Source: Cryobacterium breve
Lineage (GTDB): Bacteria > Actinomycetota > Actinomycetes > Actinomycetales > Microbacteriaceae
NCBI RefSeq assembly: GCF_004402375.1
Contig: NZ_SOGJ01000034.1
Span: 62,001 to 126,000, forward strand
Direction: 5' to 3'
Length of the DNA stretch: 64,000 nucleotides
Of the stretch, positions 7,976-31,895 are shown in pieces. The position numbers and the translations under genes were made by a program. The notes below the pieces were generated by a model. That model ran no database searches and was not told the DNA's origin. It worked only from the letters and a program-made list of their open reading frames with translations. The first letter of the stretch is position 1; each line of letters opens with the position of its first letter.

Positions 7976-8605
7976 CTACACCCCGAGTGCCATCCGCGCC
8001 CCGAGGGAGAGCATCACGACGGCGATGAAGCCGTCGAGGATGCGCCACGAACTCGGGCGGGCGAAGAACCGCCGCAGGTGGCGGGCACCGAATCCGAGGC
8101 TGAAGAACCACACGAAACTGCCCGTGATCGCCCCGGCGCCCCACCACCAGCGGGCGGACTCGCCCTGCTGGTTGGCGACCGATCCGAGGAAGATCAGCGT
8201 GTCCAGGTAGACGTGCGGGTTCAGCCAGGTGAGCGCGAGCATGGTCGTTACTGCGACCCCGGTGCTGATCGGGATTGGCGAGGCGTTCGCCTCCAGGGCC
8301 CCCGGTTTGAATGCCCGCACGGCGGCGAACACTCCGTAGGCCAGCAGGAACGCGGCCCCCACGATGCGGATGACGATCAGCGCCACCGGGGTCTGTTCCA
8401 CGAGCAAGCCGATGCCGAGGATTCCGGCGAAGATGAGCGCCGCATCCGAGATGGAGCAGATCAGCACCGCTGGCAGAATGGTTCGCGTGCGCCCCTCGAT
8501 CCCGAGCCGCAGAACGTAGGCGTTCTGGGCGCCGATCGCCACGATCAGGGCAAGCCCGGTGCCGAACCCGAGGAGCGCGGGAAGAAGGGTGGTGGCGAGG
8601 TCCAT
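7976..8605 (-). CDS. lysE: LysE/ArgO-family basic amino acid exporter
   Basis: 209-aa inner-membrane exporter of the LysE superfamily. Five to six hydrophobic segments are evident, and the family-defining GIGLALIVAIGAQNAYVLR-like segment appears as ALIVAIGAQNAYVLRLGIEG near residues 15-35, with TWLNPHVYLDT in the middle. It is divergently paired with a LysG/ArgP-type regulator, the classical arrangement for export of lysine/arginine when intracellular levels rise. The start is set at MDLATT; the longer reading includes MLHKFSC, which lies in the divergent promoter region. Confidence 0.88.
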   Translation of the reverse strand: MDLATTLLPALLGFGTGLALIVAIGAQNAYVLRLGIEGRTRTILPAVLICSISDAALIFAGILGIGLLVEQTPVALIVIRIVGAAFLLAYGVFAAVRAFKPGALEANASPIPISTGVAVTTMLALTWLNPHVYLDTLIFLGSVANQQGESARWWWGAGAITGSFVWFFSLGFGARHLRRFFARPSSWRILDGFIAVVMLSLGARMALGV

Positions 8606-8674
8606 GATGGCAAACCTAGGAGACGTGTCGTCTGTAGTACAGCTAAACTTATGAAGCATACCTAAGCGAGGCTA

Positions 8675-9691: not shown

Positions 9692-9735
9692 GGTCTCGGA
9701 GGTTCTGACCGTCAAATCGGGGGTGGAGTCTGCGG

Positions 9736-10398
9736 TTAGTCGCGCGCCCACACCTCGACTTCGCTGATTGAGGTGTCAGCGGCCCGGTCGCCGCCGACTC
9801 CGCCCACCGCGATGGCGATCGTGAGCACGATCTCCGAGGTGCTGCCCTTCGGAAGGGCCAGGCTTTGGTACGCCGCGTAATCGGCGACAGGCTTCTGACG
9901 AAGCATGGAGGGTTGGCTGCCCTGGTCGGTCTGCACTGTGAATTGCCGCACCCGGGCATTGCGGAGGTACAGGGCCTCCGACTTCGCATAGCCATTGATC
10001 ACGCAGACGAGCTGCACATCGGGTGTGCCAGGCAGGCTCAGCGTCAGCGTTTCGTTCGTGCCCAGGCCGTCTACGCCCTCCACCCACGACGTGCCGAGAT
10101 CCCCATCGATCGCCAAAACTGCCGGATGCTCAACAACACGTGGATCGGATTCGGTCAGGGCACTGGAACTCTCGGCGCCGACCCCCGACACCAGGTGAAG
10201 CCCGCGGGGATCCTCGCAGTCGGCCTCGGCAAGCGCGCTCTTGAAGTGCGGAGTGAGCATAAGCAGCAGCAGGGATGTGGCGACAGCCGTGAAGATGCCG
10301 ATCAGCAGCCCACTCAGAAGTCCGGGCCAGCGGTTCTGGGGCGGTTGAACGACGCCGACCCACAGCCTCGGTTCGGTGGTGTTTCCGCGAGTAGCCAT
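9736..10398 (-). CDS. membrane-anchored protein with a discoidin/NADase-type glycan-binding-like domain
   Basis: 220-aa protein. A cytoplasmic N-terminus (MATRGNTTEPRLW) is followed by one transmembrane helix (SGLLIGIFTAVATSLLLLML, about 38-57) and an extracytoplasmic domain containing AIDGDLGTSWVEG, ETLTLSL, VINGYAKSEALYLRNARV and IAIAVGG. This pattern is familiar from actinobacterial proteins annotated with a discoidin (F5/8C)-like, NADase-type glycan-binding domain. It probably binds surface polysaccharide; no catalytic domain is visible. GGAG precedes the chosen ATG. A longer reading overlaps the neighbouring HNH gene and is rejected. Confidence 0.65.
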   Translation of the reverse strand: MATRGNTTEPRLWVGVVQPPQNRWPGLLSGLLIGIFTAVATSLLLLMLTPHFKSALAEADCEDPRGLHLVSGVGAESSSALTESDPRVVEHPAVLAIDGDLGTSWVEGVDGLGTNETLTLSLPGTPDVQLVCVINGYAKSEALYLRNARVRQFTVQTDQGSQPSMLRQKPVADYAAYQSLALPKGSTSEIVLTIAIAVGGVGGDRAADTSISEVEVWARD

Positions 10399-10560
10399 TT
10401 TCGCTCCAGTCCACTTCGTGTGACACCGGTACTGACGATTCCAGGAAGTCCAGAACGCGGGATCGCGCACAGGACGAGTGCAGGGCTTGGGCCGGAGCCT
10501 ACGCGCGAGAGCGTTGATTCGGCAGAAAGACTCCAGGGGTGTCGCCAGGCGCTCCTGGCC

Positions 10561-10626
10561 GGCAATCGCATGGTCGGCAAGCGGATGGCCGGCAATCGGA
10601 TGGCCGGCAATCGGATGGTTGGCAAG
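10561..10626. repeat. 15-nt tandem repeat upstream of the first DUF222-HNH gene
   Basis: Four full copies and a partial fifth of a GGCAATCGGATGGCC-like unit (10561-10620 plus six bases). It lies in the gap before the HNH gene, about 130 bp upstream of its start. Confidence 0.85.
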
Positions 10627-10756
10627 CCGGCACGGATGCCCGGAGCGCGCGTTCACCGAGCCCCGGCAATCCCTCCACAAAACTCGTTTGACCAGCTTAT
10701 TCACACCTCCGCTGAACCCCGGTGGAATGTCAGTGGTACCCCGTAACGTGATTGTT

Positions 10757-12046
10757 ATGTCCATATCAGTCAGCACCTCGCAGGCGCAGCTTGGCTCGCG
10801 TTTCGACGCGATCTCAGCCGTTGACCGCAAGCTGGCAAGGGGCTTCGCGCAGCGGGCCGAGATGATCGATGAGGCCCGCCGGTTCAGCGAGGCGACGGCC
10901 GGGATGGCCTCCCGCAACACGAGTGCCCGATGGGACCCCGACGAGATCGCCCGACGAGAGTTCTCAAGCGAGCTGGCCTGCACCCTGCGCATTCCCGAAC
11001 CCACCGCCGTGAGCCTGATCGCCGAGTCGCAGGCCCTGGCTGAAGACCTCCCCGCCACCCGGGCGGCGCTCGAGGCCGGCGAGATCAGCTACCGGCACGC
11101 TCAGGTGCTGATCGGGCAGGCCTGCTCGGTGCCCGCCGAGGCTCTGGCCGCCTTCGAAGAGGCGCTGCTACCGGCCGCGCGCACCCTCACCGCGGCCAAG
11201 CTCAAGCACAAGGCCCGCGTGCTGCGCGAGCGACTGCACCCCGAGTCGATCACCGCCCGGCGGGAGAAATCCTTTCGCGACCGCACCTCCTGGGTGCAGG
11301 CGGAACCCGACGGGATGGCGACTCTGAGCGTGACCACCAGCGCCGATATCGTGCACTCCATGTTCGCCCGGGCGAACGACGCCGCCGTCAGCCTGCTGGG
11401 CCCAGGGGAGCCCCGCACCCTGACCCAGGTGCGCACCGACGTGATGAGTGACCTGCTGGTCGACGGGGTGACCCCGTCGGGAATCGGGAAGGGCGTTCGG
11501 GCGACGGTTCAGATCACGGTCCCGGTGATGACCCTTCTCGGACACAGCGAAGAGCCTGGCTACCTCGAGGGCTACGGGCCGATCGACCCCGACACGGCCC
11601 GCGACCTGGCCTCGCGAGCGCCGAGCTTCACGCGCATCCTGGTGCATCCCGAGACCGGAGTCGTGCTCTCGGTCGGTCGCACACGTTACAAGGTGTCGAA
11701 GGAACTCCGACGGTTCCTCCGTTTGCGCGACGAAACCTGCCGCTTCGCCGGGTGTAACCAGCCGGCCCGCACCGCCGACCTCGACCATACCCACGAATGG
11801 CAAGACGGCGGCCGCACAGCCCACGACAATCTGGCCCACCTCTGTCCGGGCTGCCATGCCTTGAAGACCGAGACCGGGTGGACGGTGGAGCAGCAGCCAG
11901 GCGGCATCCTTGCCTGGAAATCACCGACCGGGCGCGAGTTCGTGACGCAGCCGCCCGCTCCGATCCCTCCACCGGGCGGGGGATCGGCTACTCCTCATCC
12001 GTCGAGACCTGCCCGACATCCGCTGCCCGACGACGCACCGTTCTAA
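10757..12046 (+). CDS. DUF222 / 13E12-type HNH endonuclease, copy 1
   Basis: 429-aa protein with an N-terminal helical DUF222 region and a C-terminal HNH nuclease. The zinc/HNH core reads CRFAGCNQPA, DLDHTHEWQDGG, NLAHLCPGCHALK (about residues 325-375), with both CxxC-type pairs and the catalytic histidine intact. Such genes are multicopy in Microbacteriaceae and mycobacteria (13E12 family); their role is unsettled (mobility or DNA repair). The ATG at 10757 is chosen although an upstream GTG is in frame. It is preceded by a 15-nt tandem repeat and followed within 150 bp by a long hexanucleotide repeat. Its stop overlaps a minus-strand stop at 12043. Confidence 0.85.
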   Translation: MSISVSTSQAQLGSRFDAISAVDRKLARGFAQRAEMIDEARRFSEATAGMASRNTSARWDPDEIARREFSSELACTLRIPEPTAVSLIAESQALAEDLPATRAALEAGEISYRHAQVLIGQACSVPAEALAAFEEALLPAARTLTAAKLKHKARVLRERLHPESITARREKSFRDRTSWVQAEPDGMATLSVTTSADIVHSMFARANDAAVSLLGPGEPRTLTQVRTDVMSDLLVDGVTPSGIGKGVRATVQITVPVMTLLGHSEEPGYLEGYGPIDPDTARDLASRAPSFTRILVHPETGVVLSVGRTRYKVSKELRRFLRLRDETCRFAGCNQPARTADLDHTHEWQDGGRTAHDNLAHLCPGCHALKTETGWTVEQQPGGILAWKSPTGREFVTQPPAPIPPPGGGSATPHPSRPARHPLPDDAPF

Positions 12047-12193
12047 CCGTCGGTCGGCACCTGCGGTGCCGTTGTTGCCAGCTGGGCGACCCTGTAGTCG
12101 ATCAGCTCGGCAATGGCCGCAGCCGACGCCGCGGATCCGTCTGATTGTGCCGTGGCGACTTTTGTTCCGACTGAAGCACTCTCGACAGTGAAG

Positions 12194-12277
<84 letters not shown>

Positions 12278-12411
12278 ATTGGATTGCCAACGGGCATCGG
12301 GCGCGTTGATCAGAGTCTTGGCGCTTTGCCAAAGCCCGCTGGCCAGGAGAGCATCCACGATCTGATCGCCGACGGCCGTGCTGTAGGGCGAGGGCAGGAT
12401 GCAGTAATGCC

Positions 12412-12480
12412 GCGTGCGTGGGTGCGTGCGTGCGTGCGTGGCGTGGCGTGGCGTGGCGCGGCGTGGCGTGGCGTGGCGTG
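12412..12480. repeat. adjacent tetra- and pentanucleotide simple repeats
   Basis: A GTGC-type tetranucleotide run (12412-12440, with one interruption) passes directly into nine GCGTG pentamers (12436-12480, one variant GCGCG). Unit lengths of four and five can alter reading frame by slippage. Confidence 0.9.
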
Positions 12481-12613
12481 GCTGGCCGTGGCACACTGCC
12501 GCGTTCGTCATTCGTGGGGCATGCCTGCAGCCTAGGGAGTAGGTGCGCTCCCTTGAAGCGCGGCTCGGCGGTGGATACCCTCACAGGCAAGACGCACAAG
12601 GAGGCTGGTTCAC

Positions 12614-13003
12614 ATGGGCGAGACCGTGACACACATAGTGCTCGAAGGCTTTCTGGATGCCTTCAACCGGCATGACCTAAACGCCATCATGAGCTACTTC
12701 GCCGAAGACTGCGTCTTCTATATGCCGCGGGGCGCTAAGCCGCGTGGTGATCGCGCTGTGGGCAAGGCTGCGGTCAGGGCAGGGCTGGCGAAGCGCTTCG
12801 AGGGCATTCCCGATGTGCACTACGGCGACGACCGGCACTGGGTGGGCGACGACGGTGTCAGCGCATGCGGGGTGTCCGAGTGGACGCTGACCGGAACCTC
12901 GACCGCGGGCCAGCAGATCGAGGTGCGCGGGCTCGACTTGCTCGAGTTCGACCGGGAGGGCAAGATCACCCGCAAGGATTCCTTCTGGAAGATCGTCGAG
13001 TGA
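12614..13003 (+). CDS. SnoaL-like / NTF2-fold protein
   Basis: 129-aa protein of the SnoaL-like (nuclear transport factor 2 fold) superfamily. It opens with VLEGFLDAFNRHDLNAIMSYF, then AEDCVFYMPRG, has a central strand pair around HWVGDDGVSACGVSEWTLTG, and ends GKITRKDSFWKIVE. Members are small ligand-binding cones acting as hydrolases, isomerases or polyketide cyclases; the substrate cannot be inferred. AAGGAGG with 10-nt spacing supports the ATG. It stands alone and is followed by a strong palindromic element. Confidence 0.8.
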   Translation: MGETVTHIVLEGFLDAFNRHDLNAIMSYFAEDCVFYMPRGAKPRGDRAVGKAAVRAGLAKRFEGIPDVHYGDDRHWVGDDGVSACGVSEWTLTGTSTAGQQIEVRGLDLLEFDREGKITRKDSFWKIVE

Positions 13004-13430
13004 CGCCAACGGCCCCCAAGCTCGTGTGACGGATGCCGCGGCGCACCCTATGGAAGCGGGCGCACGTTCCACCGTGCGCCCGCATCCATAGGGTGCGCCA
13101 CGACCGCAGGAGAACCCGGGCACGGTGGAAAGTCATCGGCTGAGCTGCGGTTAGTGCGCGCAGGCTGCGGAGACCCAGGCGCAGACTGCCGAGACCCAGG
13201 CGCAGGCTGCGGAGTAGGCGGCAATGGTGACGGCCGCCAGAACCACGGTGGTTGACCCGGTTCCGACGGCCAGCGCGCATCCGATCAGGCCGACCGCTGC
13301 AGCGGTGTTCGCTGGATGTCAGCCGGAGACGGCGTCAAGCAGCTGATTGCGGCCGCACCGGACGAGTGCAGCCAAGAGGGCTGACACAGGTGTCCGGTGC
13401 GGCCACGAATCTGGCCGTGCGGAGTGCTGG
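13004..13430. other. intergenic region with palindrome, 21-nt repeats and a C-terminal peptide remnant
   Basis: 427 bp between convergent genes. It holds the 70-nt palindromic element (13035-13104), imperfect 21-nt repeats (CAGGCTGCGGAGACCCAGGCG type, about 13159-13216), and an open minus-strand frame (13151-13318) that reads like the end of a hydrophobic Ala/Cys-rich protein but has no start codon near its 5' end. Confidence 0.55.
13035..13104. repeat. 70-nt palindromic element, copy 2 (family A)
   Basis: Forms an almost perfect 27-bp hairpin: 13040-13066 pairs with 13073-13099 with a single A-A mismatch, leaving a 6-nt loop TTCCAC. Same 70-nt length as the copy at 7828-7897, 77 percent identical. 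Lies just after the SnoaL-like gene, so it may act as a terminator, but its copy elsewhere does not. Confidence 0.8.
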
Positions 13431-14234
13431 CTAGAGCGCGGGCTGGGTGACCGCGTTCATTTGCAGGGTGACGGCGGTCTGCGAGAGCAGGCGACCGTTG
13501 ACCGTCGCGCCGGTCTTCACCGCGATGAGCGACTTGGAGAGCACGACGCCCTCGAAGTGCGCCGCCGTGCCGATCGACACGGAGCCGGCGGTCTGCCAGA
13601 ACACGTTCTTCGCCTGTACGCCACCGGCGAGGGTGACCTGTTTGGCGCCAGCCTCGCTGATGTTCCCGGCGACCTGGAAGATGAACACGTCGTTCGGGCC
13701 ACCGGTCAGGGTGACGTCGCTCGAGATGGTGACTCCGGTGTTCCACTGGTAGAGGCCCGGGTTCAGGGTGAGGCCGCCGATCTCACCGGCGCCCAAGTCG
13801 ATCGCGTCGGCCTGGTCGCGGCTGACGGCATCCTGGTAGGCGATGCCCATGTCGCCGACGACGGTGTTCAGGTAGGCCGGGTCGGTGACCGCGCAGGCCG
13901 GGCCGGCAGCGTCGACCGTGTAGATGATGCCCGTCTGCACTTCGTCGCAGCTCAGGTGGATGGCGGCACCCGTGATCGGGCTGGCGCCGACGTTTCCGTT
14001 GACGGCCGACGCGTAGACATCCGTTACACCAGTCTGGGCAAGAATGGCGAAGGTGCCGGCGGAGCCGAGCGCGATCGGCGCGCGCACGGACCCGGTGGGC
14101 ACGGCTGCCGACGCCGGGGTGGCGCCCGCGGTGCCGAGGCCGGCCGTGCCGACGCCTGCGATGGCGACTGCGAAGAGCATTGCCGGCAGCCAGCGACGGA
14201 TGCCGGAGTGTGGTTTCTTAGTGAAAGTGGACAT
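13431..14234 (-). CDS. secreted ice-binding protein (DUF3494 family)
   Basis: 267-aa protein with a Sec signal peptide (basic start MSTFTKKPHSGIRRW, hydrophobic core, cleavage near TPASAAVP) followed by a single DUF3494 beta-helix domain: LGSAGTFAILAQTGVT, VNGNVGASPITG, GLTLNPGLYQWNTGV, DVFIFQVAGNI, NVFWQTAGSVSIGT, LLSQTAVTLQMNAV. Proteins of this family bind ice surfaces, inhibit recrystallisation and help cells keep a liquid brine habitat. The start at MSTFTKK follows a GAAAGG ribosome site; upstream in-frame methionines give implausible N-termini. No anchoring motif is seen, so the mature protein is probably released. Confidence 0.92.
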   Translation of the reverse strand: MSTFTKKPHSGIRRWLPAMLFAVAIAGVGTAGLGTAGATPASAAVPTGSVRAPIALGSAGTFAILAQTGVTDVYASAVNGNVGASPITGAAIHLSCDEVQTGIIYTVDAAGPACAVTDPAYLNTVVGDMGIAYQDAVSRDQADAIDLGAGEIGGLTLNPGLYQWNTGVTISSDVTLTGGPNDVFIFQVAGNISEAGAKQVTLAGGVQAKNVFWQTAGSVSIGTAAHFEGVVLSKSLIAVKTGATVNGRLLSQTAVTLQMNAVTQPAL

Positions 14235-14677
14235 GGTGATTGCCTTTCCCGTGAGACACATCCGCGAGCGCGGACGCGAGGGCAGGGCCGCTGAACATGG
14301 CGGTCCCCGGAACGATGGCCGGGTTTCGCTCACTGGCGGAAGTGTGCCGGGAATGCACCTCTCCAGCCGCGCAGGAAAGACGGGCATCACGCACGAGAAA
14401 GTGCGCCCCACTGAGCTGGAATCCAACGAATCGAATCTGTCTAACCCCAGACTAGGGCTAATAACTGCGCCCCCGAACACGGCGCGTGGCGTTCAGATGA
14501 ATAGCTCGCGTCGCTGAGGAGTCACGTGCCGCCGAGGGGGAATATTGCACGCACGAGCCCGCGAACGGCGCACTCGCCTGGGAGTCGAGGTCGGCGAAGC
14601 ATCCGTCGACCGTGGCCAAAAAAGTCGACGGATGCCCAGGGCGACCATGTGCGCCCCCGCCCCACCCCCACTGGGGA

Positions 14678-14705
14678 CAAAAAAGCTGGCTAAGGCGCTT
14701 TTTTG
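14678..14705 (+). promoter_or_regulatory. conserved hairpin upstream of decayed gene copy
   Basis: CAAAAAAGC (14678-14686) pairs perfectly with GCTTTTTTG (14697-14705) over a 10-nt loop, immediately after ACTGGGGA. The counterpart at 17846-17873 keeps the pairing with different arm sequence, so the structure rather than the sequence appears conserved. Confidence 0.65.
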
Positions 14706-14766
14706 ACTCTCGAGCCCGCCTAGGCTCGAACTTTGCAGTGAAGTTAGACAGCTGGGGGGCTGAAGC

Positions 14767-14836
14767 GTGGGTTCAGATAACGTACTGCTCGCGACGGGGC
14801 GCTGGTCGGTTTCCTGGTTCGAATGGTGAAGCTCCT
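14767..14836 (+). pseudogene. internally deleted copy of the small membrane-protein gene
   Basis: The GTG start and the next ~45 nt match the start of the gene at 17933 (GTGrGTTCAGA then GCGCTGGTyG). The sequence then jumps to the equivalent of that gene's 3' end (GGTTCGAATGGTGAA). About 300 nt of the middle are missing and one base is lost. Only about 20 codons remain open. Confidence 0.6.
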
Positions 14837-14945
14837 CCGGAACGCTCGGCGGGAGGCGGGAGGCGGGAGGCGGACAGGCTGCAGTACACGCTGATGTCGC
14901 GCCAATGAGGGCTCGGTCATCTCCCTCCAGGCTCCAGGCTCCGGC

Positions 14946-15920
14946 TCAGCCTCGCAGGCGAAGAAGGACTGGGCTGGTTGGACTCTTCTGCTCGATCTCG
15001 ATCACCGACGACCGGGATTTCAGGAAATCGGAGAACTGGGTAAAGCCGAGCGCGCGCTCCTGAAAGGCCGGATCCATCCGTTTCATCTGTAGCTTCAGCG
15101 CCGATGCGTGTTGCCACTCCTGGTCGTTCTGCGCCAGCAACTCCATGGCTCGCAGGAGCAGCGGCGTCGCCGCCTTCCCTGCACTGGGAGTGACCGCGGC
15201 TTCGGCGGTAACTGTGGCTGCCGGGGCGGGAACGAGGGGAAGCGTAGAAACGGATGCGGCGGCATCCGACTTCTTGGTTGAAACCTCTGTGGCAGGCGGG
15301 GCCGGAGCCGCGGCCGGCGCTGAAATCGCAACGAGCGTCGCCGCACTCGTGACACCGGGCAGGGAGTCGTAGTCGGCGAACTCGTCCCAGGCGGCCGCGA
15401 GCGTACTGCTCGTCGAGCCAAAAACGCCGATTCCGATGACGTAGCGGCCCAGCCTCCTGCAGCGCTGGGCGAGCGGGACGTAGTCGGAATCTCCGGCGAC
15501 GATGACGACGTGGGTGAGGTCGGTGAGCCGCAACACGTCCTCGACGACGTCGATGGCCAACCGGATATCCGCGCCGTTCTTCAGCGACGAGACGGTCGGG
15601 AACAGTTGCGTCAGGTCGACAGCGCGGTCGGTGAGCTGGCGCTGGTACCTCGCGTTGACCGCCGCCGACCAGTCGGCGTAGGCGCGACTGACCACGACTG
15701 ACCCGAACGATGACGCGTAGTCCAGCACGGCGCCCACATCGATCATGGCCTGGTGGATGCGCGCGGTCACTTCAGCGTCGGCCCTGGGATTCGACGACAC
15801 GTGATTGCGCGCCTTGTCTTTGGCGAACTGGTTCTTGCCGTGCAACTGGTTGTAGCGCGAGATGACGATGTTGTCGAAGTCCAGGTAGACGCCGACTCGT
15901 TCGCGGGACTGCTCAGCCAT
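14946..15920 (-). CDS. NYN-domain (PIN-like) protein with C-terminal OST-HTH/LOTUS-like domain
   Basis: 324-aa protein. The N-terminal NYN/LabA-type PIN-fold nuclease domain shows the acidic cluster VYLDFDNI (about 11-18), GADIRLAIDVVEDV and VAGDSDYVPLAQRCRRLG, which are metal-binding positions of this fold. An Ala/Pro/Thr-rich linker (about 190-240) leads to a C-terminal region (LLLRAMELLAQNDQEW, KRMDPAFQERALGF, FSDFLKSRS) consistent with an OST-HTH/LOTUS RNA-binding domain. Such proteins are predicted ribonucleases, some linked to RNA decay or silencing-like processes. It stands divergent from the NERD gene. Target unknown. Confidence 0.8.
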   Translation of the reverse strand: MAEQSRERVGVYLDFDNIVISRYNQLHGKNQFAKDKARNHVSSNPRADAEVTARIHQAMIDVGAVLDYASSFGSVVVSRAYADWSAAVNARYQRQLTDRAVDLTQLFPTVSSLKNGADIRLAIDVVEDVLRLTDLTHVVIVAGDSDYVPLAQRCRRLGRYVIGIGVFGSTSSTLAAAWDEFADYDSLPGVTSAATLVAISAPAAAPAPPATEVSTKKSDAAASVSTLPLVPAPAATVTAEAAVTPSAGKAATPLLLRAMELLAQNDQEWQHASALKLQMKRMDPAFQERALGFTQFSDFLKSRSSVIEIEQKSPTSPVLLRLRG

Positions 15921-24069: not shown

Positions 24070-24675
24070 CTACATCAGCCACACGCCGCGATTCGATGAG
24101 GCGATTGCACTCGCGCCCGCGTTTAAGGCGGCCATCACATCTTCCTTGTCACAGACCAAACCCCCAGCAATCAAGGGGAGGTCGGTGTCGTTACAGACCC
24201 AGGAGATCACCCGGGGCATGCACCCGGGGAGGATCATGATGGCGTCCGGTTCCGAAATTTTCACCTGCTTGGACACATTGTTGTAGCTGAAGGAATCGAC
24301 CAGGAATAGTCGGTGAACGGCCATCAGGCCAGCTGTCTTTGCAGCTTTCACCATGATGGATTTTGAGCTGAGGACTCCGTCAACCTTTGTGTGAGCTTTC
24401 AGGAAGTCGACCGCGATGGGCTTGCTGGAAAAACCGTCCAGCAGATCCACATCCACGAAGACTGTCTTCCCAGACTTTTTCAAGGCCGCCACAATGTTGT
24501 GAATCGTCATTATCGACCCGAAGAGAACGAAGACAACAGGGCAGGGGGCATGGAGAACCGCCCGCAATCCATCCTCATCCTTGATGCTTGCGATTACCGG
24601 GTGAAGCGACAGCACGTCGCGGATTGCAGACGATTCGTCGACGACGGGGAATGCTCTACTCGGCGATCCTGACAC
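24070..24675 (-). CDS. ygcP: GlpP-family antiterminator, YgcP-like
   Basis: 201-aa TIM-barrel-like protein of the glycerol-3-phosphate responsive antiterminator family (GlpP; E. coli YgcP). Landmarks are HPVIASIKDEDGL, VFVLFGSIMTIHNIV, FVDVDLLDGFSSKP, DGVLSSKSIMVKAAKTAGL, PDAIMILPGCMPRV and LPLIAGGLVCDKEDV. In Bacillus GlpP binds leader RNA and prevents termination when its phosphorylated ligand is present. Here the gene is divergent from a catabolic operon whose leader carries a clear terminator at 24871-24913. The GTG start is used because the nearby ATG frame stops at once. The ligand is probably a phosphate ester made by the cluster's own kinase (inference). Confidence 0.85.
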   Translation of the reverse strand: MSGSPSRAFPVVDESSAIRDVLSLHPVIASIKDEDGLRAVLHAPCPVVFVLFGSIMTIHNIVAALKKSGKTVFVDVDLLDGFSSKPIAVDFLKAHTKVDGVLSSKSIMVKAAKTAGLMAVHRLFLVDSFSYNNVSKQVKISEPDAIMILPGCMPRVISWVCNDTDLPLIAGGLVCDKEDVMAALNAGASAIASSNRGVWLM

Positions 24676-24833
24676 GCATCATTCCTTCGCTGAAGAACCC
24701 GACCTGGGGCGGCTTGAAATCGACGATCGTCGCAGACCCGCAACTCTGACTACCCTACGCCCGATAATTTGCTGGAGTCCCACAGCAGGGAAAGGTCGTG
24801 TTAGGCTTCCGCACAACCTAAAACTTCATACAT

Positions 24834-24854
24834 GTTCCGGGCTTGCTCCGGAAC
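24834..24854 (+). promoter_or_regulatory. leader hairpin, candidate antiterminator element
   Basis: GTTCCGG (24834-24840) pairs with CCGGAAC (24848-24854) over a 7-nt loop, 17 nt upstream of the leader terminator. Together with a weaker TTAGG/CCTAA pair near 24801-24820 it could form the alternative fold recognised by the adjacent GlpP-family protein. Confidence 0.45.
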
Positions 24855-24870
24855 TGTTGCTAAAACCTAG

Positions 24871-24913
24871 AGAACAGCGACCCTTTCATTTGAGGGGATC
24901 GCTGTTTTTTTTG
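24871..24913 (+). terminator. intrinsic terminator in the leader of the ygcU operon
   Basis: AACAGCGA (24873-24880) pairs with TCGCTGTT, extended by CCC/GGG with one bulge, over a short A/T-rich loop. An uninterrupted run of eight Ts (24905-24912) follows. It is the clearest U-tract terminator in this high-GC window and lies about 80 nt before the first gene of the operon, where it can only act as an attenuator. Confidence 0.85.
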
Positions 24914-24993
24914 TCTTTAACCCACGATGAGGTGGACGAGTTGCTCAACATCCCACAACAGGAACACCAAGAACGAACGGAATCAGTCGAATA

Positions 24994-26439
24994 ATGCGCC
25001 TCACCCGTGAAGAAATTGTCAGTGCCTACGTTGACCTGCTCGGCAGCGAGCGAGTGCTAACCGACGAGCAAACGCTCAAGGACAACAGCGCGGATCGGTA
25101 CTACAAAGTCGAGAACATCTTCGGCATCTACGCCCTGCCACTGCCTGCGGCCGTGGTGAAGCCCGGCACCCCGCAGGAGGTGGCCCAGGTACTGAAATTC
25201 GCGAACGATAACGGCATCAACGTTGTGCCGAAGACGGGCGGATCCGCGACCGAGGGCGGCCTCGAGACCGTTGTCGAGAATTCCATCGTTGTTGACGGTT
25301 CGGGCATGAATCAGATCCTCAACATCGATACCGACAACATGCTGGCGACCGTGCAGTGCGGAGTCTGCCTCGAGGACCTCGAGAACGAGCTCCGCAAGAT
25401 CGGCTTCACCACCGGTCACTCGCCGCAGTCCAAGCCCTTGGCCCAATATGGCGGACTGGTCGCTACCCGCTCCATCGGCCAGTTCTCCACTCTTTACGGT
25501 GGAATCGAAGACATGCTCGTCGGAGTCGAAACGGTCTTCCCAAACGGCGAAATCTGCCGCATCAAGAACGTCCCCCGTCGCGCAGCCGGCCCCGACATCC
25601 GTCACCTCGTGCTCGGCAACGAAGGTGCACTCAACTACATCACCGAAGTCACCGTCAAGATTTTCCGCTACTACCCGGAGAACAATAAGTTCTACGGCTA
25701 CCTGCTCAACGACATGAAGACCGGCCTGGAAATTCTCCGGGAGGTCATCACCCAGGGCTACCGTCCGTCCGTCGCCCGGCTCTACGACAAAGAAGATGGG
25801 CTGTACCACTTCAAGCACTTCTCGGACGGACGCTGCGTACTCATCTTTGTCGCCGAAGGGCCCAAGCCCATCGCTGACGCAACGGGAGCCGCCATCGAAG
25901 AGATCGTCTCCACCTTCGGCTCGGCGGATCGAGTCGACGACAAACTCATTGAGGACTGGTTCGACAACCTCAACTGGGACGTCTCGAAGATTGAAGAAGA
26001 ACGAATTGAGATTCGGGACACCTTGATCAACGGCTTCACCACGGAGATCTCGGGCAATTGGAGTGTCATTCACGACATCTACACCAATGCCCTCGACCGC
26101 ATCCGGAATGAAATCTCGGCGGAATTCAGCCTGCTCGGCGGGCACTCCAGCCACAGCTATCTCAACGGAACCAACATGTACTTCGTCTACTACTACAAGA
26201 TCGACGTTGATCCGACGGAAGAACGTGCCACATACCACGACCCGATCCAGAACATCATCGTCGAGGAAACCCTGAAACTGGGCGGTTCGATGTGCCACCA
26301 CCACGGCGTTGGAAAGCACCGCACGCACTTTCTGGCCGAGGAATACGGCTCTTCGCTCTACATGCTCGAAACGCTCAAAGCCGCATTCGACCCGAACGGG
26401 ATCATGAACCGCGGCACCATCTTCCCGCTCAAGAAGTAA
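24994..26439 (+). CDS. ygcU: FAD-linked oxidase/dehydrogenase, AGPS-like, YgcU-like
   Basis: 481-aa flavoenzyme of the VAO/PCMH superfamily, related to alkyldihydroxyacetonephosphate synthase. The FAD-binding half shows PAAVVKPGTPQEVAQVLKFA, VVPKTGGSATEGG, TGHSPQSKPLAQYGGLVATR and NEGALNYITEVTVK. The C-terminal half ends in SMCHHHGVGKHRTHFLAEEYG (about 430-450), the AGPS-type HHHGVG active-site motif. E. coli YgcU is the closest named relative I can recognise; its substrate is unknown. First gene of a four-gene operon behind an attenuator. An oxidised hydroxy-acid or sugar acid is the likely substrate class (inference). Confidence 0.8.
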   Translation: MRLTREEIVSAYVDLLGSERVLTDEQTLKDNSADRYYKVENIFGIYALPLPAAVVKPGTPQEVAQVLKFANDNGINVVPKTGGSATEGGLETVVENSIVVDGSGMNQILNIDTDNMLATVQCGVCLEDLENELRKIGFTTGHSPQSKPLAQYGGLVATRSIGQFSTLYGGIEDMLVGVETVFPNGEICRIKNVPRRAAGPDIRHLVLGNEGALNYITEVTVKIFRYYPENNKFYGYLLNDMKTGLEILREVITQGYRPSVARLYDKEDGLYHFKHFSDGRCVLIFVAEGPKPIADATGAAIEEIVSTFGSADRVDDKLIEDWFDNLNWDVSKIEEERIEIRDTLINGFTTEISGNWSVIHDIYTNALDRIRNEISAEFSLLGGHSSHSYLNGTNMYFVYYYKIDVDPTEERATYHDPIQNIIVEETLKLGGSMCHHHGVGKHRTHFLAEEYGSSLYMLETLKAAFDPNGIMNRGTIFPLKK

Positions 26440-26451
26440 CTTCCCCTTCCG

Positions 26452-26503
26452 GCGCGGGTGCGCCAGAGCGCACACAGAGGTGTGGCTCCTGGCGCACCCG
26501 CGC
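26452..26503. repeat. 15-bp intergenic hairpin inside the ygc operon
   Basis: GCGCGGGTGCGCCAG (26452-26466) pairs perfectly with 26489-26503, with an inner CACAC/GTGTG stem in the 22-nt loop. It lies between ygcU and ygcW in the middle of an apparent operon, so it may tune relative expression or protect mRNA ends. Confidence 0.7.
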
Positions 26504-26529
26504 GCCAAACATAGAAATCGAGAATACGC

Positions 26530-27318
26530 ATGACTGACGTCAACATTTCTGACTTCCAGATGGACTTCTTCTCAATCAAGGGCAAGAACGCCATCGTCAC
26601 CGGCGGAAACACCGGACTCGGGCAGGCCTTCAGCCTCGCCTTGGCCAAAGCAGGCGCGAATGTGTTCGCCGTCAGCATCATGCCCGACGACGGGGAAACC
26701 GGCGCACTGGTCGAGGCAGCCGGCGCTAAGTACGCATACCTCATGTCGGATATCACGGCCGAGGGAAACCCCAAACTGATTGTCGAGGCCTGCATTGCGG
26801 AATTCGGCAGCGTCGATGTCCTCGTGAACTGCGCCGGCCGCAGCCTCAACGAACCCGACGTCACCAAGTACACGCGCAAGCAGTGGGACCCGATGGTTGC
26901 TCTCAACCTCACCGCGGCCTTCGAGATGTCGCACGAATGCGCAAAGTATATGATCCCGCAGGGCAGCGGCAAGATCATCAACATTTGCTCGGTGTTCACC
27001 TTCCTCGGTGGCCAGTGGTCACCCGCGTACGCCGCAACCAAGCACGGCATCGCAGGCTTCACCAAGGCATACTGCGACGAACTGGCTCAGTTCGGAATCC
27101 AAGTGAACGGCATCGCTCCCGGCTATTACGCCACCGAGCTCACGTCGGAAACCCGCGCCAACGCTGACACCAACCAGCGCGTCCTCGACCACATCCCGGC
27201 CAACCGTTGGGGCCAGACCCAGGACCTCATGGGGGCAACAGTGTTCCTCGCAAGCCGCGCTTCCGACTACGTGAACGGGCACATCCTCAGCGTCGACGGG
27301 GGATACCTGGTGCGCTAA
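26530..27318 (+). CDS. ygcW: SDR-family dehydrogenase, YgcW-like
   Basis: 262-aa short-chain dehydrogenase/reductase. It has the coenzyme motif TGGNTGLG (24-31), NCAG in VLVNCAGRS, the catalytic Ser in NICSVFTFLGG and the YAATK active site (Tyr about 167, Lys about 171), and ends with GHILSVDGGYLVR. Relatives include 2-deoxy-D-gluconate 3-dehydrogenase and gluconate 5-dehydrogenase; YgcW of E. coli is the matching member of the ygc cluster. It would interconvert a keto and hydroxy group on a sugar-acid-like substrate using NAD(P). An upstream hairpin separates it from ygcU. Confidence 0.82.
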   Translation: MTDVNISDFQMDFFSIKGKNAIVTGGNTGLGQAFSLALAKAGANVFAVSIMPDDGETGALVEAAGAKYAYLMSDITAEGNPKLIVEACIAEFGSVDVLVNCAGRSLNEPDVTKYTRKQWDPMVALNLTAAFEMSHECAKYMIPQGSGKIINICSVFTFLGGQWSPAYAATKHGIAGFTKAYCDELAQFGIQVNGIAPGYYATELTSETRANADTNQRVLDHIPANRWGQTQDLMGATVFLASRASDYVNGHILSVDGGYLVR

Positions 27319-27328
27319 GCGCCGGCAC

Positions 27329-28804
27329 ATGACGATGAATCTCACAATGACGAAGAAGTACATTCTTGGGATCGACGGCGGCTCGCAAAGTTCGAAGGTG
27401 GTCATATTCGACACCGAAGGACGAGTTGTGTGCGAGGCCAGCCAGGCCTTGGAGCCCCTCTACACACCCGAACCGGGGGTTGTAGAGCATCCGAACGACG
27501 ACCTCTACGACTCTATTGTTGCCGCCGCGTCGCGCGCAATGAAGGCATTCCAGGGCGATCCGGCAGACATCATCGGTGTGGGCCTGTGCACCATCCGGTG
27601 CTGTCGCGCCCTGACCCGCGCAGACGGCACTCTCGTCGAGCCAGTGCAGAGCTGGATGGACGAACGCCTCTCCAAACCCTACGAACCGACCAACGATGAC
27701 GTCGTCCACGTGACGACGACGTCGGGCTACCTGATGGGGCGGCTCACGGGCCAGCTCACCGATACCATCGCCAACTATATCGGCCCCTGGCCAATGGATG
27801 TCGAGACCTGGGACTGGTTCACCGACCAGAAAACCTTCGACTCCTACAACCTCAGCCGAAGCATGTTGTATCGGCTGCAGATGCCTGGCGAAGTCGGCGG
27901 TTACGTGAACGAAGAGTTCGCGACCCGCACCGGTATCCCGCAGGGTCTCCCGGTCGTACACACCGCAAACGACAAGGCCGCTGAGGCGCTGGGGGCCGGC
28001 CTCCGCGACGAAACGACAGGACTGGTGTCACTCGGCACGTACATAACGGGGATGATCGTTGGCAACGAATACGTTGCCGAACCAAAGTCCTACTTCTCCA
28101 ATTTTGCGTCCGAACCGCATCGGTACCTCTACGAATGCGGGGGTATCCGCCGTGGCATGTGGACTGTTTCGTGGCTGCGTAACCTGCTCGGACGGGAAAT
28201 CACCGAGGCCGCAGCGGCCGCCGGGGTGACCGGAGATGAACACCTCAACGCAGTGGCGTCCGGCGTTCCTGCGGGGAGTGACGGCCTCCTGTGCGTCCTC
28301 GATTGGCTCGCACCTCCCACACAGCCGTATAAGAAGGGGATGTTCATCGGTTTTGATGAACGCCACGGCTATGCCCACATGTATCGCGCCATCCTCGAAG
28401 GCATCGCCTTCACCATGAAGCAAAACATGGTGGAGATGGAAGAAGAGCGAGCGATCAGCATCGAAACGCTCGTCATCTCCGGCGGAGGTTCCTACAGCGA
28501 TTTGTGCATGCAGATCTTTGCCGATGTCTTCGGCCTCCCTGTGGTGCGCAATGAGGTGCGCAACGCAGCCGGCCTCGGCGCCGCCATCTGCGTCGCCGTG
28601 GCCTGCGGCGTGTACCCCACCTTCGATGACGCCTCAGGTCAAATGGTCCATCGCGAGGATCGCTTTGAGCCCAATGCCGACAACGTCGATCTCTACACCC
28701 AGCTCCGCGCGGTTTCCGTCGAAATCACGACGCAGACCGACGTCATTCTCCAACGCACGCACCGTATCCTTCACGATCGCAAAGGGGCAATCGCACATGT
28801 ATAA
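27329..28804 (+). CDS. ygcE: FGGY-family carbohydrate kinase, YgcE-like
   Basis: 491-aa sugar kinase of the FGGY family. The phosphate-1 motif ILGIDGGSQSSKVVIFD lies near the N-terminus, VGLCTIRCCRAL and VEPVQSWMDER in the first domain, and LVISGGGSYSDLCMQIFADV with VRNEVRNAAGLGAA in the second (the FGGY signature region). It would phosphorylate a polyol, ketose or sugar acid; the product is a plausible ligand for the GlpP-family regulator. It begins 11 bp after ygcW. ATGs at 27335 and 27347 are alternative starts. Its end overlaps the transporter start by eight bases. Confidence 0.85.
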   Translation: MTMNLTMTKKYILGIDGGSQSSKVVIFDTEGRVVCEASQALEPLYTPEPGVVEHPNDDLYDSIVAAASRAMKAFQGDPADIIGVGLCTIRCCRALTRADGTLVEPVQSWMDERLSKPYEPTNDDVVHVTTTSGYLMGRLTGQLTDTIANYIGPWPMDVETWDWFTDQKTFDSYNLSRSMLYRLQMPGEVGGYVNEEFATRTGIPQGLPVVHTANDKAAEALGAGLRDETTGLVSLGTYITGMIVGNEYVAEPKSYFSNFASEPHRYLYECGGIRRGMWTVSWLRNLLGREITEAAAAAGVTGDEHLNAVASGVPAGSDGLLCVLDWLAPPTQPYKKGMFIGFDERHGYAHMYRAILEGIAFTMKQNMVEMEEERAISIETLVISGGGSYSDLCMQIFADVFGLPVVRNEVRNAAGLGAAICVAVACGVYPTFDDASGQMVHREDRFEPNADNVDLYTQLRAVSVEITTQTDVILQRTHRILHDRKGAIAHV

Positions 28805-30113
28805 ATCCGGCCAGTCCAAGAAGATCTTTCAACTCGTCCTGCTGATTCTGGCGGGAGGTTCCATCTACCCGTTGGTGTACCTGCGTCAAAACTTTGAAGC
28901 GACCATTCTGCAGGTCTTCGACATGTCCAACGCTGAGTTGGCGAATCTGTACTCGATGCTCGGCATCATCTTCGTCGTCGGCTACCTCCCCAGCGGATGG
29001 CTGGCCGACAAGTTCCCGACGAAATACATGATCACCTTTTCGTTGGTGCTCACAGCGGTCGCGGGCTTGTTCTACGCCCGAATCCCGGACAAGTCGATGT
29101 TGGTCTACATCTTCCTGGTCTGGGGCTTTGCCTCGGTGTTCACGTTCTGGAGCGCACTCCTCAAGGCCGTCAACCTGCTCGCCGAAAAGAACGAAGAAGG
29201 TAGATTCTTCGGCGCTCTGGATGGGGGTCGCGGAGTGGTTGAGGCGGCACTCGCCACCGTCGCGGTTGCCATCTTCGCCGCCTTCGTCGGTGACGGCGGG
29301 TCGAACCTGGCCGACACAAAAGCTGGATTCCAAGCGGTCGTGTACATGTACTGTGCTGTGCTCATCGTGCTCGCTCTTGTGCTCTTCTTCGTGCTCTCCA
29401 GCGACGAGACGGCGAAAGATGAGGTGACCCACGGCGAACCCGCCGAATCGACATTCGCCGCAGTTCGCCGAATCCTCAAGATCCGCGAAGTCTGGGTGCT
29501 GATGCTCGCCCTGTTCTGCGGTTACACCCTCTTCTGGGCCTACTACTACTTCTCGGGATACCTCACCACCAACCACGCTGTGACACCCGTTGCAGCCGGC
29601 GTCGTGACAGTCGTCGTGATGTGGATGCGCCCCATCGGAGGCTTCGGCGGAGGGTACCTCGCCGACAAACTCGGCAAATCTCGCGTCTTGTCGGCCGCCA
29701 TGTTGGTTTCGGCGATCGGGCTCATCGCTCTGGCGCTCATGCCGGGTGGTTTCGCCATTGGACTGGTCTACGCTCTGGTCGTTCTGGTCGGGCTGTTCGT
29801 CTACGTCATCCGGGGTGTCTACTGGTCGCTACTGGAAGACTGCCGCGTCCCAGTTGCCGCGACAGGGATCGCGATTGGACTGATCTCGCTGGTCGGGTAC
29901 CTTCCCGACATCGTCCTTCCTCAGATCAGCGCCGCGATATACACCGCCTACGGTGACGACGTCGCCGGTGCCAATAACCTGTACTTCCTCATCACGGCTG
30001 GCATTGGTCTAGTGGGCGCAGTGGCTGCGGGATACTTCGCCGTCCTGGTCAAGAAACGCAAGGTCGCCGAGGCTGAGCAGAGCGCCGTCTCCGCCACTCT
30101 CGTGGGATCCTGA
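28797..30113 (+). CDS. yqcE: MFS transporter, YqcE-like
   Basis: 438-aa major facilitator with about twelve hydrophobic helices. It has a loop motif GYLPSGWLADKFPTKYMITF between helices 2 and 3 and GGFGGGYLADKLGKSRVLSA as its second-half counterpart. Of the E. coli ygc genes it matches the transporter yqcE in context: kinase, SDR, FAD enzyme and transporter together. The ATG lies inside the kinase 3' end, so translation is coupled; a longer reading overlaps the kinase out of frame. It is presumably the uptake system for the cluster's substrate. Confidence 0.82.
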   Translation: MYKSGQSKKIFQLVLLILAGGSIYPLVYLRQNFEATILQVFDMSNAELANLYSMLGIIFVVGYLPSGWLADKFPTKYMITFSLVLTAVAGLFYARIPDKSMLVYIFLVWGFASVFTFWSALLKAVNLLAEKNEEGRFFGALDGGRGVVEAALATVAVAIFAAFVGDGGSNLADTKAGFQAVVYMYCAVLIVLALVLFFVLSSDETAKDEVTHGEPAESTFAAVRRILKIREVWVLMLALFCGYTLFWAYYYFSGYLTTNHAVTPVAAGVVTVVVMWMRPIGGFGGGYLADKLGKSRVLSAAMLVSAIGLIALALMPGGFAIGLVYALVVLVGLFVYVIRGVYWSLLEDCRVPVAATGIAIGLISLVGYLPDIVLPQISAAIYTAYGDDVAGANNLYFLITAGIGLVGAVAAGYFAVLVKKRKVAEAEQSAVSATLVGS

Positions 30114-30282: not shown

Positions 30283-31002
30283 TCAGACCGCCGGCATCGC
30301 TGCATCCGTCACTGCGTCGAGCACGGCCCGCACGGTTCCCGGGTCACCGATGATGCGGAAGTGCCCGCCCACGCGTAGCTGGATGTTGCGGGCACCGACG
30401 AGTTCACTGCCCTCGGGGATATGCGGGTCGAACACACCGTAGATCGAGGTGATGCGGTCGTTGACCCGGTGGTCAAGGCCAAGGTCGTGCAGTGCCACAT
30501 TGGCGGGGGCGAAGGCACGGATGCTCGGAACGACCCAGTAGCGCGCATAGCGGGAGCCGCCGAAGGGAGCACTGATCGCGGCCATCGCGCTCACCCGGCG
30601 GCCCGGGTCATCCGTCGTCATCAGCAGTTTGCCGATCAGGCCGCCCTTGCTGTGCGCGACGATGATGACGTCGGTCAGGTTCTCCCGCTCGAGGTAGTCG
30701 GACACTGTTGCAGCAGCATCCGCCAGCGAACGCCGGTTGCGACCGAGCTTCGCCACCACGTGCACCGGATGCCCGTGGTTGTGCAGAATCTGGATCAGTG
30801 GCCGCATGAACTGCCAGGACTCGTACACCCCGGGGATGATGACGATCGGAGCTTTGACGCCGGAGCGGAAGTCCGCCGGTCGGGCACGGGAAAGGAAGGC
30901 GCGGGTCTGCCCGATTGACGCGTAGACGTAATCGAGCAGCCACCATCGGGCTTCGCGCAGGTGGCGGCGCAGTAGACGGGGGTTCAGCAGACGCAGACTC
31001 AT
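30283..31002 (-). CDS. alpha/beta hydrolase (lipase-like)
   Basis: 239-aa alpha/beta hydrolase. PIVIIPGVYESWQFMRPLI carries the oxyanion-loop region, and VAHSKGGLIGKLL holds the nucleophile serine in a variant Gly-x-Ser-x-Gly (His-Ser-Lys-Gly-Gly). An acidic residue follows in SIYGVFDPHIPEGS, and the catalytic histidine lies in VGGHFRIIGD. This resembles esterase/lipase proteins acting on lipids or small esters. Its ATG overlaps the stop of the upstream hydrolase (ATGA), so the two form an operon on the minus strand. Substrate unknown. Confidence 0.8.
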   Translation of the reverse strand: MSLRLLNPRLLRRHLREARWWLLDYVYASIGQTRAFLSRARPADFRSGVKAPIVIIPGVYESWQFMRPLIQILHNHGHPVHVVAKLGRNRRSLADAAATVSDYLERENLTDVIIVAHSKGGLIGKLLMTTDDPGRRVSAMAAISAPFGGSRYARYWVVPSIRAFAPANVALHDLGLDHRVNDRITSIYGVFDPHIPEGSELVGARNIQLRVGGHFRIIGDPGTVRAVLDAVTDAAMPAV

Positions 31003-31895
31003 GGGGCCGGATACTCGATTGGCCGCTGCGCGGTCGGCGGCTGCTTGACCGACGGATGTCGTTGAACGTGCGCATCGATGACGGCGGATGTATGCGCAGC
31101 GGCGCTGTGGTGAACCAGGTGGCGGTGCCCCGCGACCTCCAGGAGACGCCCATCCGGCGCGGCGGCGGCCAGCGCCGCACACCAGGAGCTGCCCGAAACG
31201 GGATCGTCGTCGCCGCGGATCACGAGGGTGGGGGAGCGCACTTCGTGGAGGGCCAGGTCGGTGCGGTAGTCGAGCATGGCCGCGAGTTCGGTGGAGAACC
31301 AGCGCGGGCCGCACTCGAGGTAGTCCTGGAACACGATCAGGTTGCCGGACGGTGACTCCTTGACCACATCCCGGGTCAGGCCCATCGCCTGCTGCACGGC
31401 AGTGGCCCGACGCGGATCGGTGACGGGACCGATCAGAACCAGGTGGGAGACGGCATCCGGTCGTTGCCGGGCCAACTCGGTGACGAACTGGGCACCCATC
31501 GAATGGCCGACCACAACCACCCGCGGCACCTCGAGCTGGTCGAGAACTCGGCCGAGCAGGGTGCCATATTCTTCGACCGCAAGCGGCCGCTCGGGCTTGC
31601 GGGTGCCGCCGAAACCGGGGAGGTCGAGCGAATGGGTGTGACCGGTGGCCGCCAGGCTCTGCTGCATCCGGCGGAAGTAGCGGTGCGAGGCGCCGATGCC
31701 GTGCACCAGCAGGTAGGTGGGCGGCTCGGCCTCCGACGCCGCGTCGCGCGCATGGGCGGTGCTGGCCAGGGAGTGCACGGTGAACTCATGCCCGTCCACC
31801 TCGATGTTGCGGCGACGGGCGGGCACGCCGGCCGGGCGCCGTCGGTCGGCGCTCGCGCGGGTACTGCTCGTCACGGGGGTTTCCTTCGGGTTCAT
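30999..31895 (-). CDS. alpha/beta hydrolase
   Basis: 298-aa alpha/beta-fold hydrolase. YLLVHGIGASHRYFRRM is the oxyanion loop, VVVGHSMGAQF the nucleophile elbow (GHSMG), RGDDDPVSG the acid region and EVAGHRHLVHHS the histidine. The N-terminus is Arg/Ala-rich. It is translationally coupled to the second hydrolase. The family includes esterases, epoxide hydrolases and haloperoxidase-like enzymes; no neighbouring pathway narrows this. Confidence 0.82.
   Translation of the reverse strand: MNPKETPVTSSTRASADRRRPAGVPARRRNIEVDGHEFTVHSLASTAHARDAASEAEPPTYLLVHGIGASHRYFRRMQQSLAATGHTHSLDLPGFGGTRKPERPLAVEEYGTLLGRVLDQLEVPRVVVVGHSMGAQFVTELARQRPDAVSHLVLIGPVTDPRRATAVQQAMGLTRDVVKESPSGNLIVFQDYLECGPRWFSTELAAMLDYRTDLALHEVRSPTLVIRGDDDPVSGSSWCAALAAAAPDGRLLEVAGHRHLVHHSAAAHTSAVIDAHVQRHPSVKQPPTAQRPIEYPAP

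Follow-up and report, generated by a model that had tools for sequence, protein, structure and literature searches.

What does a cluster resembling the ygc genes of Escherichia coli do in an actinobacterium, and how is it controlled? The question is raised by positions 24070-30113 of a stretch of 64,000 nucleotides from Cryobacterium breve (contig NZ_SOGJ01000034.1, positions 62,001 to 126,000 of the forward strand), hereafter the window. The list of open reading frames (ORFs) and Pfam place there the five genes that a sequence-only reading had named, and the families it gave were confirmed: G3P_antiterm for a GlpP-family protein, FAD_binding_4 and FAD-oxidase_C for a flavin adenine dinucleotide (FAD) enzyme, adh_short for a short-chain dehydrogenase/reductase (SDR), FGGY_N/FGGY_C for an FGGY kinase and MFS_1 for a major facilitator superfamily (MFS) transporter, each exceeding its curated cut-off. 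As a whole, we lean somewhat towards a transferred ygc-type catabolic cassette with its own GlpP-type antitermination switch. The main observation is a leader RNA element. It has the appearance of a dedicated system of GlpP-type antitermination, and one is predicted in E. coli as well.

The leader of the plus-strand operon holds an intrinsic terminator with its U-run (24870-24912, plus strand), recognised by folding, terminator scan and pair counts and missed by a simple terminator scan; the segment 24869-24915 folds at -22.5 kcal/mol (z -5.75). Just upstream, GTTGCT is able to pair with AGCGAC inside the terminator 5' arm. The putative antiterminator (24856-24881, plus strand), brought out by the descriptor scan, the pair counts and a match to covariance model R1, has a 6-bp stem (24856-24861 with 24876-24881) and a 14-nt loop; its 3' arm overlaps the terminator 5' arm, and it is the predicted target of the GlpP/YgcP protein. 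A small hairpin before it (24834-24854, plus strand; predicted leader fold, sequence by eye) was also seen by eye in several actinobacterial leaders. As for Rfam, no family exceeded the gathering score for the window leader or for the E. coli yqcE-ygcW gap, and the best matches, mir-6 and SurA, were rejected as falling below it.

The relatives compared come from a scan of one genome per species and are the best 80 of 357 encoding a homologue of the FAD gene, several of these loci sitting on short contigs. A descriptor scan for both hairpins returned 115 elements in 75 of 82 sources: 12/12 actinobacterial (window included), 13/17 Bacillota and 50/53 others. Within 240 nt of a mapped ygcU, ygcW or yqcE homologue lie 107 of the 115; five stand before BCCT genes, and two from E. 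coli K-12 and one from locus L072 are found at the yqcE-ygcW gap. The layout is present twice in E. coli, once per divergent operon (ygcW, yqcE). Dinucleotide shuffles of the 80 loci (three copies, 4.02 Mb, both strands) gave a single match. Concerning the terminators alone, 121 were found before mapped genes; among the strong and near ones preceding ygcU/ygcW/yqcE-type genes, 58 of 61 have an upstream complement, vs. 22.7% when the upstream bases are shuffled, and the remaining three have, by eye, a complement with an 18-base loop.

Pairs were counted in 33 of the 115 elements, picked at under about 90% alike. Antiterminator pairs are formed in 95.2% of cells, a value inflated by the descriptor, which demanded at least 5 pairs, and five of the seven pairs show double changes; covariation reaches 0.395 vs. 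0.237 in shuffles, none of 500 being as high. Terminator pairs are formed in 87.1% of cells. Since both helices are paired across the elements, the common strand changes together with two partners. Covariance model R1, built on the terminator structure and counted at E up to 0.1, has one match in the genome of the window, at window positions 24854-24916 (E 1.8e-7). Over 20 genomes, it matched 14 of 16 cluster-bearing ones (the exceptions being those of L082 and L025) and neither of the two with a variant cluster described below; of two same-genus genomes without GlpP, one had no match and one a marginal match. The four matches in E. coli (G150) correspond to the two leaders and their reverse-strand shadows. 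Riboswitch candidates given for E. coli ygcW in the accessible part of PMC4448311 were rejected as this element, lying 3.5-4.2 kb from ygcW.

Could the leader hairpin be no more than a common terminator, stopping for example stray transcription from upstream, with an accidental complement and GlpP acting elsewhere? A promoter scan of the leader found nothing convincing, as this would have it. We nevertheless consider it very improbable: both alternative helices are conserved with double changes, the element precedes each operon in three phyla, with two copies for the two divergent operons of E. coli, it is near absent elsewhere, and Bacillus subtilis GlpP offers a precedent, as far as the accessible part of PMC9604022 goes. 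Several observations nonetheless weigh against GlpP-type antitermination. Folded alone, the window antiterminator is weak (-4.7 kcal/mol) and prefers a slightly shifted register, and that of E. coli is no better than shuffles (z -0.88); such folding is compatible with a hairpin that depends on a protein for its stability, without proving it. The marginal R1 match in the same-genus genome without GlpP has an E of 0.004. Seven sources gave no descriptor match: L082 has GlpP and no element, L025 and L037 have neither GlpP in the locus nor the element, L029 and L032 are short contigs without GlpP, and in L027 and L030 the element missed by the descriptor is visible by eye. On balance, judged from sequence comparison, the operon is very probably regulated by GlpP-type antitermination, and the matching leader RNA element strengthens the sequence-only reading's claim that the cluster has its own antiterminator.

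The presumed partner of this RNA, a YgcP-type predicted RNA-binding antiterminator protein of 201 aa, is encoded at 24070-24675 on the minus strand, divergently from the operon; it scores 201.9 bits against PF04309 (cut-off 27) and has 3kts and 1vkf as Protein Data Bank (PDB) relatives. In an alignment of 71 YgcP-type and 7 canonical GlpP rows (L021 and L035 left out on account of a stop, L039 treated separately), many residues are shared by the two types, among them D77, G81, R122, D127, S128, G172 and W199, while H121 of the YgcP-type rows replaces a canonical Q. As reported in the accessible part of PMC9604022, B. subtilis GlpP disrupts the leader terminators of glpD, glpFK and glpT. The idea that the window GlpP runs ordinary glycerol genes was rejected, on the strength of the descriptor: the two true glpK and the two glpF-type genes of the genome lie at two separate sites away from the cluster, and the descriptor found no element in the stretches examined around these two glpFK operons (about 1.5 kb flank), where R1 would miss a canonical-type element.

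Six Bacillota genomes examined have one or two further GlpP genes each, and four of them canonical glp elements, namely Cohnella, Sporomusa and HGW-7 (descriptor) and Halobacillus (by eye); none was found in the Salibacterium and Geosporobacter stretches. The stems of these glp leaders are GCTGT/ACAGC in Cohnella, GGAC/GTCC and GGACT/AGTCC in Sporomusa, GTGGC/GCCGT in HGW-7 and GGTC/GACC (by eye) in Halobacillus, while the ygc elements of these Bacillota genomes use AAATTACT, AATTACTA, AATTACT and AAGTTACT. Recognition of the loop may be common to both kinds of leader, the stem serving as a possible address label. Two further descriptor matches, in L130 and L137, occur at places resembling chance.

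As regards the genes themselves, protein searches bear out the sequence-only proposal that the set is that of the E. coli ygc cluster: the best E. coli match of each of the five window products is the expected protein, with 49% identity to YgcP, 63% to YgcU, 68% to YgcW, 49% to YgcE and, across the full length of the MFS protein, 26% to YqcE (E 4e-43). At the DNA level, 5050 of 5426 E. coli genomes have a stretch that aligns with the FAD-SDR region at 60-80% identity, and among the matches listed those in five records fall at ygcU/ygcW. No YgcS, electron-transfer flavoprotein (ETF) YgcR/YgcQ or YgcN/YgcO homologue was mapped adjoining the window genes. In the accessible parts of the open-access literature searched, no paper was found giving the ygc cluster a function. 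CRP is reported, in the part of PMC3105977 that is accessible, to target the E. coli ygcW-yqcE gap, which fits a catabolic role.

The operon had also been described as compact. This holds for the four plus-strand genes, which stand together, and not for GlpP, a separate regulator gene on the other strand. The FAD gene (24994-26439) is followed by those of the SDR (26530-27318), the kinase (27329-28804) and the MFS transporter (28797-30113, its start set by eye from the sequence); with a gap of 10 bases between the SDR and kinase genes and an overlap of 8 between those of the kinase and MFS protein, these three are tightly coupled. The 90-base gap between FAD and SDR genes contains a strong hairpin (26452-26505; -48.8 kcal/mol and z -6.4 for 26436-26516), which could separate or stabilise two parts of the mRNA. 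Just past the operon, two minus-strand ORFs (343 and 298 aa, 30283-31895) have GHSxG/AHSxG-like motifs, which we take to be hydrolase motifs.

The grouping of these genes is not due to chance, as the best 80 relatives indicate: the SDR gene is in the locus of all 80 (78 within 3 kb), the kinase gene in 77, the GlpP homologue in 73 and the YqcE-type MFS gene in 60, while ETF-type R and Q genes number 47 each. Eleven of the loci are actinobacterial (L004-L013 and L039), 17 belong to Bacillota and the remainder are mostly enteric. Thus the proposed co-occurrence across phyla holds in this neighbourhood survey. That the pathway is complete is not supported, since E. coli and Clostridia possess ETF genes in addition and Bacillota use other transporters, the YqcE-type MFS gene being absent from all 17 Bacillota loci. 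Four clostridial loci (L014, L015, L022 and L026, about 11.2-14.8 kb) possess a second GlcD-like FAD gene and a second ETF pair after the first.

In Actinomycetota, the cassette is rare and patchy, given that 8 of 150 genomes of the window's family, its own among them, score above the PF04309 cut-off, six of ygc type and two of the variant type (G003 and G129), and that the FAD protein is found at E up to 1e-100 in 2 of 394 genomes of the class, own included. The closest named relatives among the best 80 of 357 are Cryobacterium, with 96% identity in the FAD protein. The cassette looks transferred: the window is similar in DNA to L004-L007 (three loci from Cryobacterium and one from elsewhere in the Microbacteriaceae) between about 24.8 and 30.1 kb only, or from 24.07 kb in the case of L005, the flanks have no match longer than 60 bases to these loci, and the GC content of the genes is 0.55-0.61 vs. 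0.66 for the window. In a tree of 32 FAD proteins, the six named Micrococcales and the window form one clade (100/100), with a weak link to Bacillaceae (83/65); Schaalia adjoins the enterics (97/95), apart from that clade, so that the Actinomycetota rows are not one group, and Bacillota are found at several positions. Of note, the ygc genes of L072 (labelled as a Planctomycetota metagenome-assembled genome, MAG) and L074 (labelled Chryseobacterium) share 99% and 88-93% identity with those of E. coli or closely related enterics, and these two loci are probably misassigned contigs or contamination.

What the cassette acts upon was approached through the FAD enzyme (YgcU-type). With a profile of its 32-row family, alkyl-dihydroxyacetonephosphate synthase (AGPS, 4bby) scores 245 bits and the next family 162 bits, and in a Foldseek search with the predicted model (pLDDT 86), ranks 1 to 29 are all AGPS chains. 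R262, Y396 and H435-437 are invariant in 32/32 aligned rows, a 28%-identical outlier included, and align with AGPS R419, Y578 and H615-617 (numbers counted from the printed alignment). According to the accessible part of PMC3509576, R352, Y508 and R447 of Dictyostelium AGPS matter for catalysis, and the enzyme activates C1 of acyl-dihydroxyacetone phosphate (acyl-DHAP) by way of a flavin adduct. Given an offset of three in the chain numbering, which both residues imply, R262 and Y396 are the counterparts of R352 and Y508. R337, set against R447, is Arg in 28/32 and Lys in 4/32 rows; its spacing to the aligned Glu is right, but the HMMER alignment gives Glu and a gap. By sequence profile and model fold, AGPS is the nearest kin of this enzyme, with the first Arg, the Tyr and the HHH loop kept.

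The affinities of the other operon proteins count against such a reading of the chemistry, in addition to D-lactate dehydrogenase folds that fit nearly as well as those of AGPS (TM-score 0.82 vs. 0.79-0.87). The SDR (YgcW-type) is nearest to sugar-acid dehydrogenases, KduD and then gluconate 5-dehydrogenase ranking first in NCBIfam; its KduD-type models reach 310.6, 267.7 and 241.3 bits, below their cut-offs of 369, 338.85 and 430 (subfamily), and its best PDB chain is 2-deoxy-D-gluconate 3-dehydrogenase (4z9y, 221 bits). The kinase (YgcE-type) has glycerol kinase 6ude as its nearest solved chain by a thin margin (95.7 vs. 87-84 bits for an FGGY kinase, an autoinducer-2 kinase and a xylulokinase), NCBIfam ranks XylB first below its cut-off, and the GlpK model TIGR01311 gives 122 bits where 590 is required. 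As for the MFS protein, it is weakly nearest to D-galactonate transporters.

These affinities would suit a sugar-acid or polyol pathway under GlpP-type antitermination, in which a GlcD-like flavin dehydrogenase acts on a 2-hydroxy acid; the FAD enzyme indeed matches NCBIfam GlcD at 142 bits. None of the four operon proteins reaches an NCBIfam equivalog cut-off, however; in particular, the gluconokinase, xylulokinase and sugar-acid transport models all stay below theirs, so that the outcome named in the sequence-only reading as refuting it, a kinase and transporter from another pathway already described, such as gluconate or xylulose use, did not arise. AGPS is a nearer relative of the FAD enzyme than GlcD, LctD or D-lactate dehydrogenases are, and betaine transporters and a cousin cluster, presented below, speak for another substrate. 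We therefore find such a pathway rather doubtful. The sugar acid or polyol derivative proposed in the sequence-only reading is unsupported as stated, in view of the AGPS-like enzyme, a kinase narrowly nearest to glycerol kinases and the transporters of the Bacillota loci, even though the SDR does lean that way.

The cousin cluster is a variant found in two Microbacteriaceae genomes (L137, 8422-15528; L138, about 8564-15138), where a GlpP-like gene adjoins an AGPS-like FAD gene. It appears to be another AGPS-like catabolic operon governed by a GlpP homologue, and has an MFS gene and no R1 match in either genome. In L137, it is completed by GlpD-like and GlpK-like genes, below equivalog cut-offs; going plainly by the families, the predicted order is kinase, C2 oxidation and AGPS step.

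BCCT or OsmF/OpuAC betaine-type transporters accompany all 17 Bacillota loci, as well as L039 of Schaalia and L082 (transporter families were checked with hidden Markov models for representatives). They are absent from 15 comparison loci, picked for a GlpP or R1 match and not at random, seven being actinobacterial ygc or variant; the idea that betaine transporters accompany any locus in such genomes was thus rejected. The leader element directly precedes BCCT genes in L015, L016 (two, both strands), L017 and L026, and was also seen by eye before BCCT in L014 (R1 E 6.1e-5) and on the minus strand of L026, which places these BCCT genes in the same predicted regulon. Other neighbours were less telling: the extra ones in L025, L037 and L082 gave no substrate clue, and a corrinoid/methyltransferase link in L014 was rejected, the neighbours being cobalamin-synthesis genes.

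In Bacillota, the substrate probably carries a quaternary ammonium (betaine) group; a betaine-bearing substrate is, as a general proposal, put forward tentatively. It is weakened by the clusters of the window, the other Micrococcales loci and the enterics, which have no betaine transporter; a BCCT gene is present elsewhere in the genome of the window. The transporters might also be passengers, exporters working by antiport of a betaine product (CaiT, for instance, exchanges carnitine and butyrobetaine) or habitat-linked osmolyte uptake systems, uninformative on the substrate. Judged by their names, several of the Bacillota hosts are halophiles (Halobacillus, Salibacterium, Gracilibacillus), in keeping with that idea, as is the lack of these transporters in enterics and most actinobacterial loci. 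It is nevertheless unlikely, as they also occur in Clostridia, Sporomusa, Cohnella, Schaalia and an alphaproteobacterial MAG, belong to two unrelated families, and have the same leader element directly before BCCT genes.

Taking the antitermination switch and the AGPS-like step together, the cassette would work as follows. When the inducer is lacking, transcription of the four-gene operon would halt at the leader terminator. A phosphorylated pathway intermediate, once accumulated, would be bound by the divergently encoded GlpP homologue, which would then hold the leader RNA in the alternative hairpin, use up the terminator 5' arm and allow read-through. The MFS protein would import the substrate, possibly a 1-substituted glycerol or similar short polyol, the FGGY kinase would phosphorylate it and the SDR would oxidise a secondary hydroxyl to a ketone. 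The AGPS-like enzyme may then, in the manner of AGPS at C1 of acyl-DHAP, attack the carbon beside the ketone and cut off the substituent, with electrons passing to ETF where ETF genes go with the cluster. Such AGPS-type chemistry on a phosphorylated 1-substituted glycerol-like compound is, from the protein families, a proposal with about even chances. Ligand binding, antitermination, every enzymatic step and the substrate are all inferred.

Betaine lipids have glycerol ether-linked to a betaine, and a more specific, and improbable, version of the proposal is that the ygc pathway dismantles their headgroup. The kinase would make the 3-phosphate and the SDR the C2 ketone; YgcU, using AGPS chemistry in the cleaving direction, would free a DHAP-level carbon and a betaine alcohol from glycerol ether-linked to trimethylhomoserine or a similar betaine. 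In the blooms of one snow alga, diacylglyceryl-trimethylhomoserine (DGTS) made up 20-40% of membrane glycerolipids, according to the accessible part of PMC10657455; this would be a source suiting cold-living relatives. In the accessible parts of the literature consulted on betaine-lipid headgroup breakdown and bacterial glyceryl-ether cleavage, neither was shown. If true, headgroup breakdown would give bacteria a flavin-dependent means of cleaving a glyceryl ether, and would account together for the E. coli cluster, the control by GlpP, the kinship with AGPS and the BCCT/OsmF transporters. An AGPS-like step cutting a glyceryl ether would be unusual, given that alkylglycerol monooxygenase is called, in the accessible part of PMC7911779, the only known alkylglycerol-degrading enzyme.

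Whatever the substrate, the conserved leader element turns the ygc cluster into a testable regulon. GlpP-type antitermination, described for B. subtilis glycerol genes, would thereby reach a second regulon, present in three phyla, that retains the loop and has another stem; this suggests a way for paralogous antiterminators to be kept separate within the same cell.

Compared with known systems, the window cluster resembles most that of E. coli K-12 (ygcP / ygcWU(SRQ) / yqcE-ygcE), with an orthologous regulator, FAD enzyme, SDR and kinase, a similar MFS protein and a leader terminator/antiterminator element; E. coli distributes the genes over two divergent operons, each with an element, and also possesses YgcS, ETF YgcR/Q and YgcN/O, whereas the single operon of the window, with its single element, lacks all of these additional genes. 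As for the FAD enzyme, it shares with AGPS/ADPS the best sequence profile and fold and the Arg, Tyr and HHH-loop residues, and differs in its 25-27% identity, its shorter length and its place in a catabolic operon with a kinase, an SDR and a transporter. Flavin dehydrogenases of the LctD/EtfAB and GlcD types belong to the same superfamily and score lower (129-162 bits), and ETF genes go with the ygc cluster in Clostridia and many enterics. Finally, with B. subtilis GlpP antitermination the window system has in common the protein family and a terminator in the 5' untranslated region, and with the canonical glp leaders of four of the six Bacillota genomes, the leaders compared here in place of those of B. 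subtilis itself, the GAGA..GAGA-type loop; the stems are A/U-rich in ygc elements (RTTACY or RTTGCT) and GC-rich in canonical ones (GGYC, GCTGT, GTGGC), and the ygc GlpP differs from canonical GlpP systems in having its own predicted regulon.

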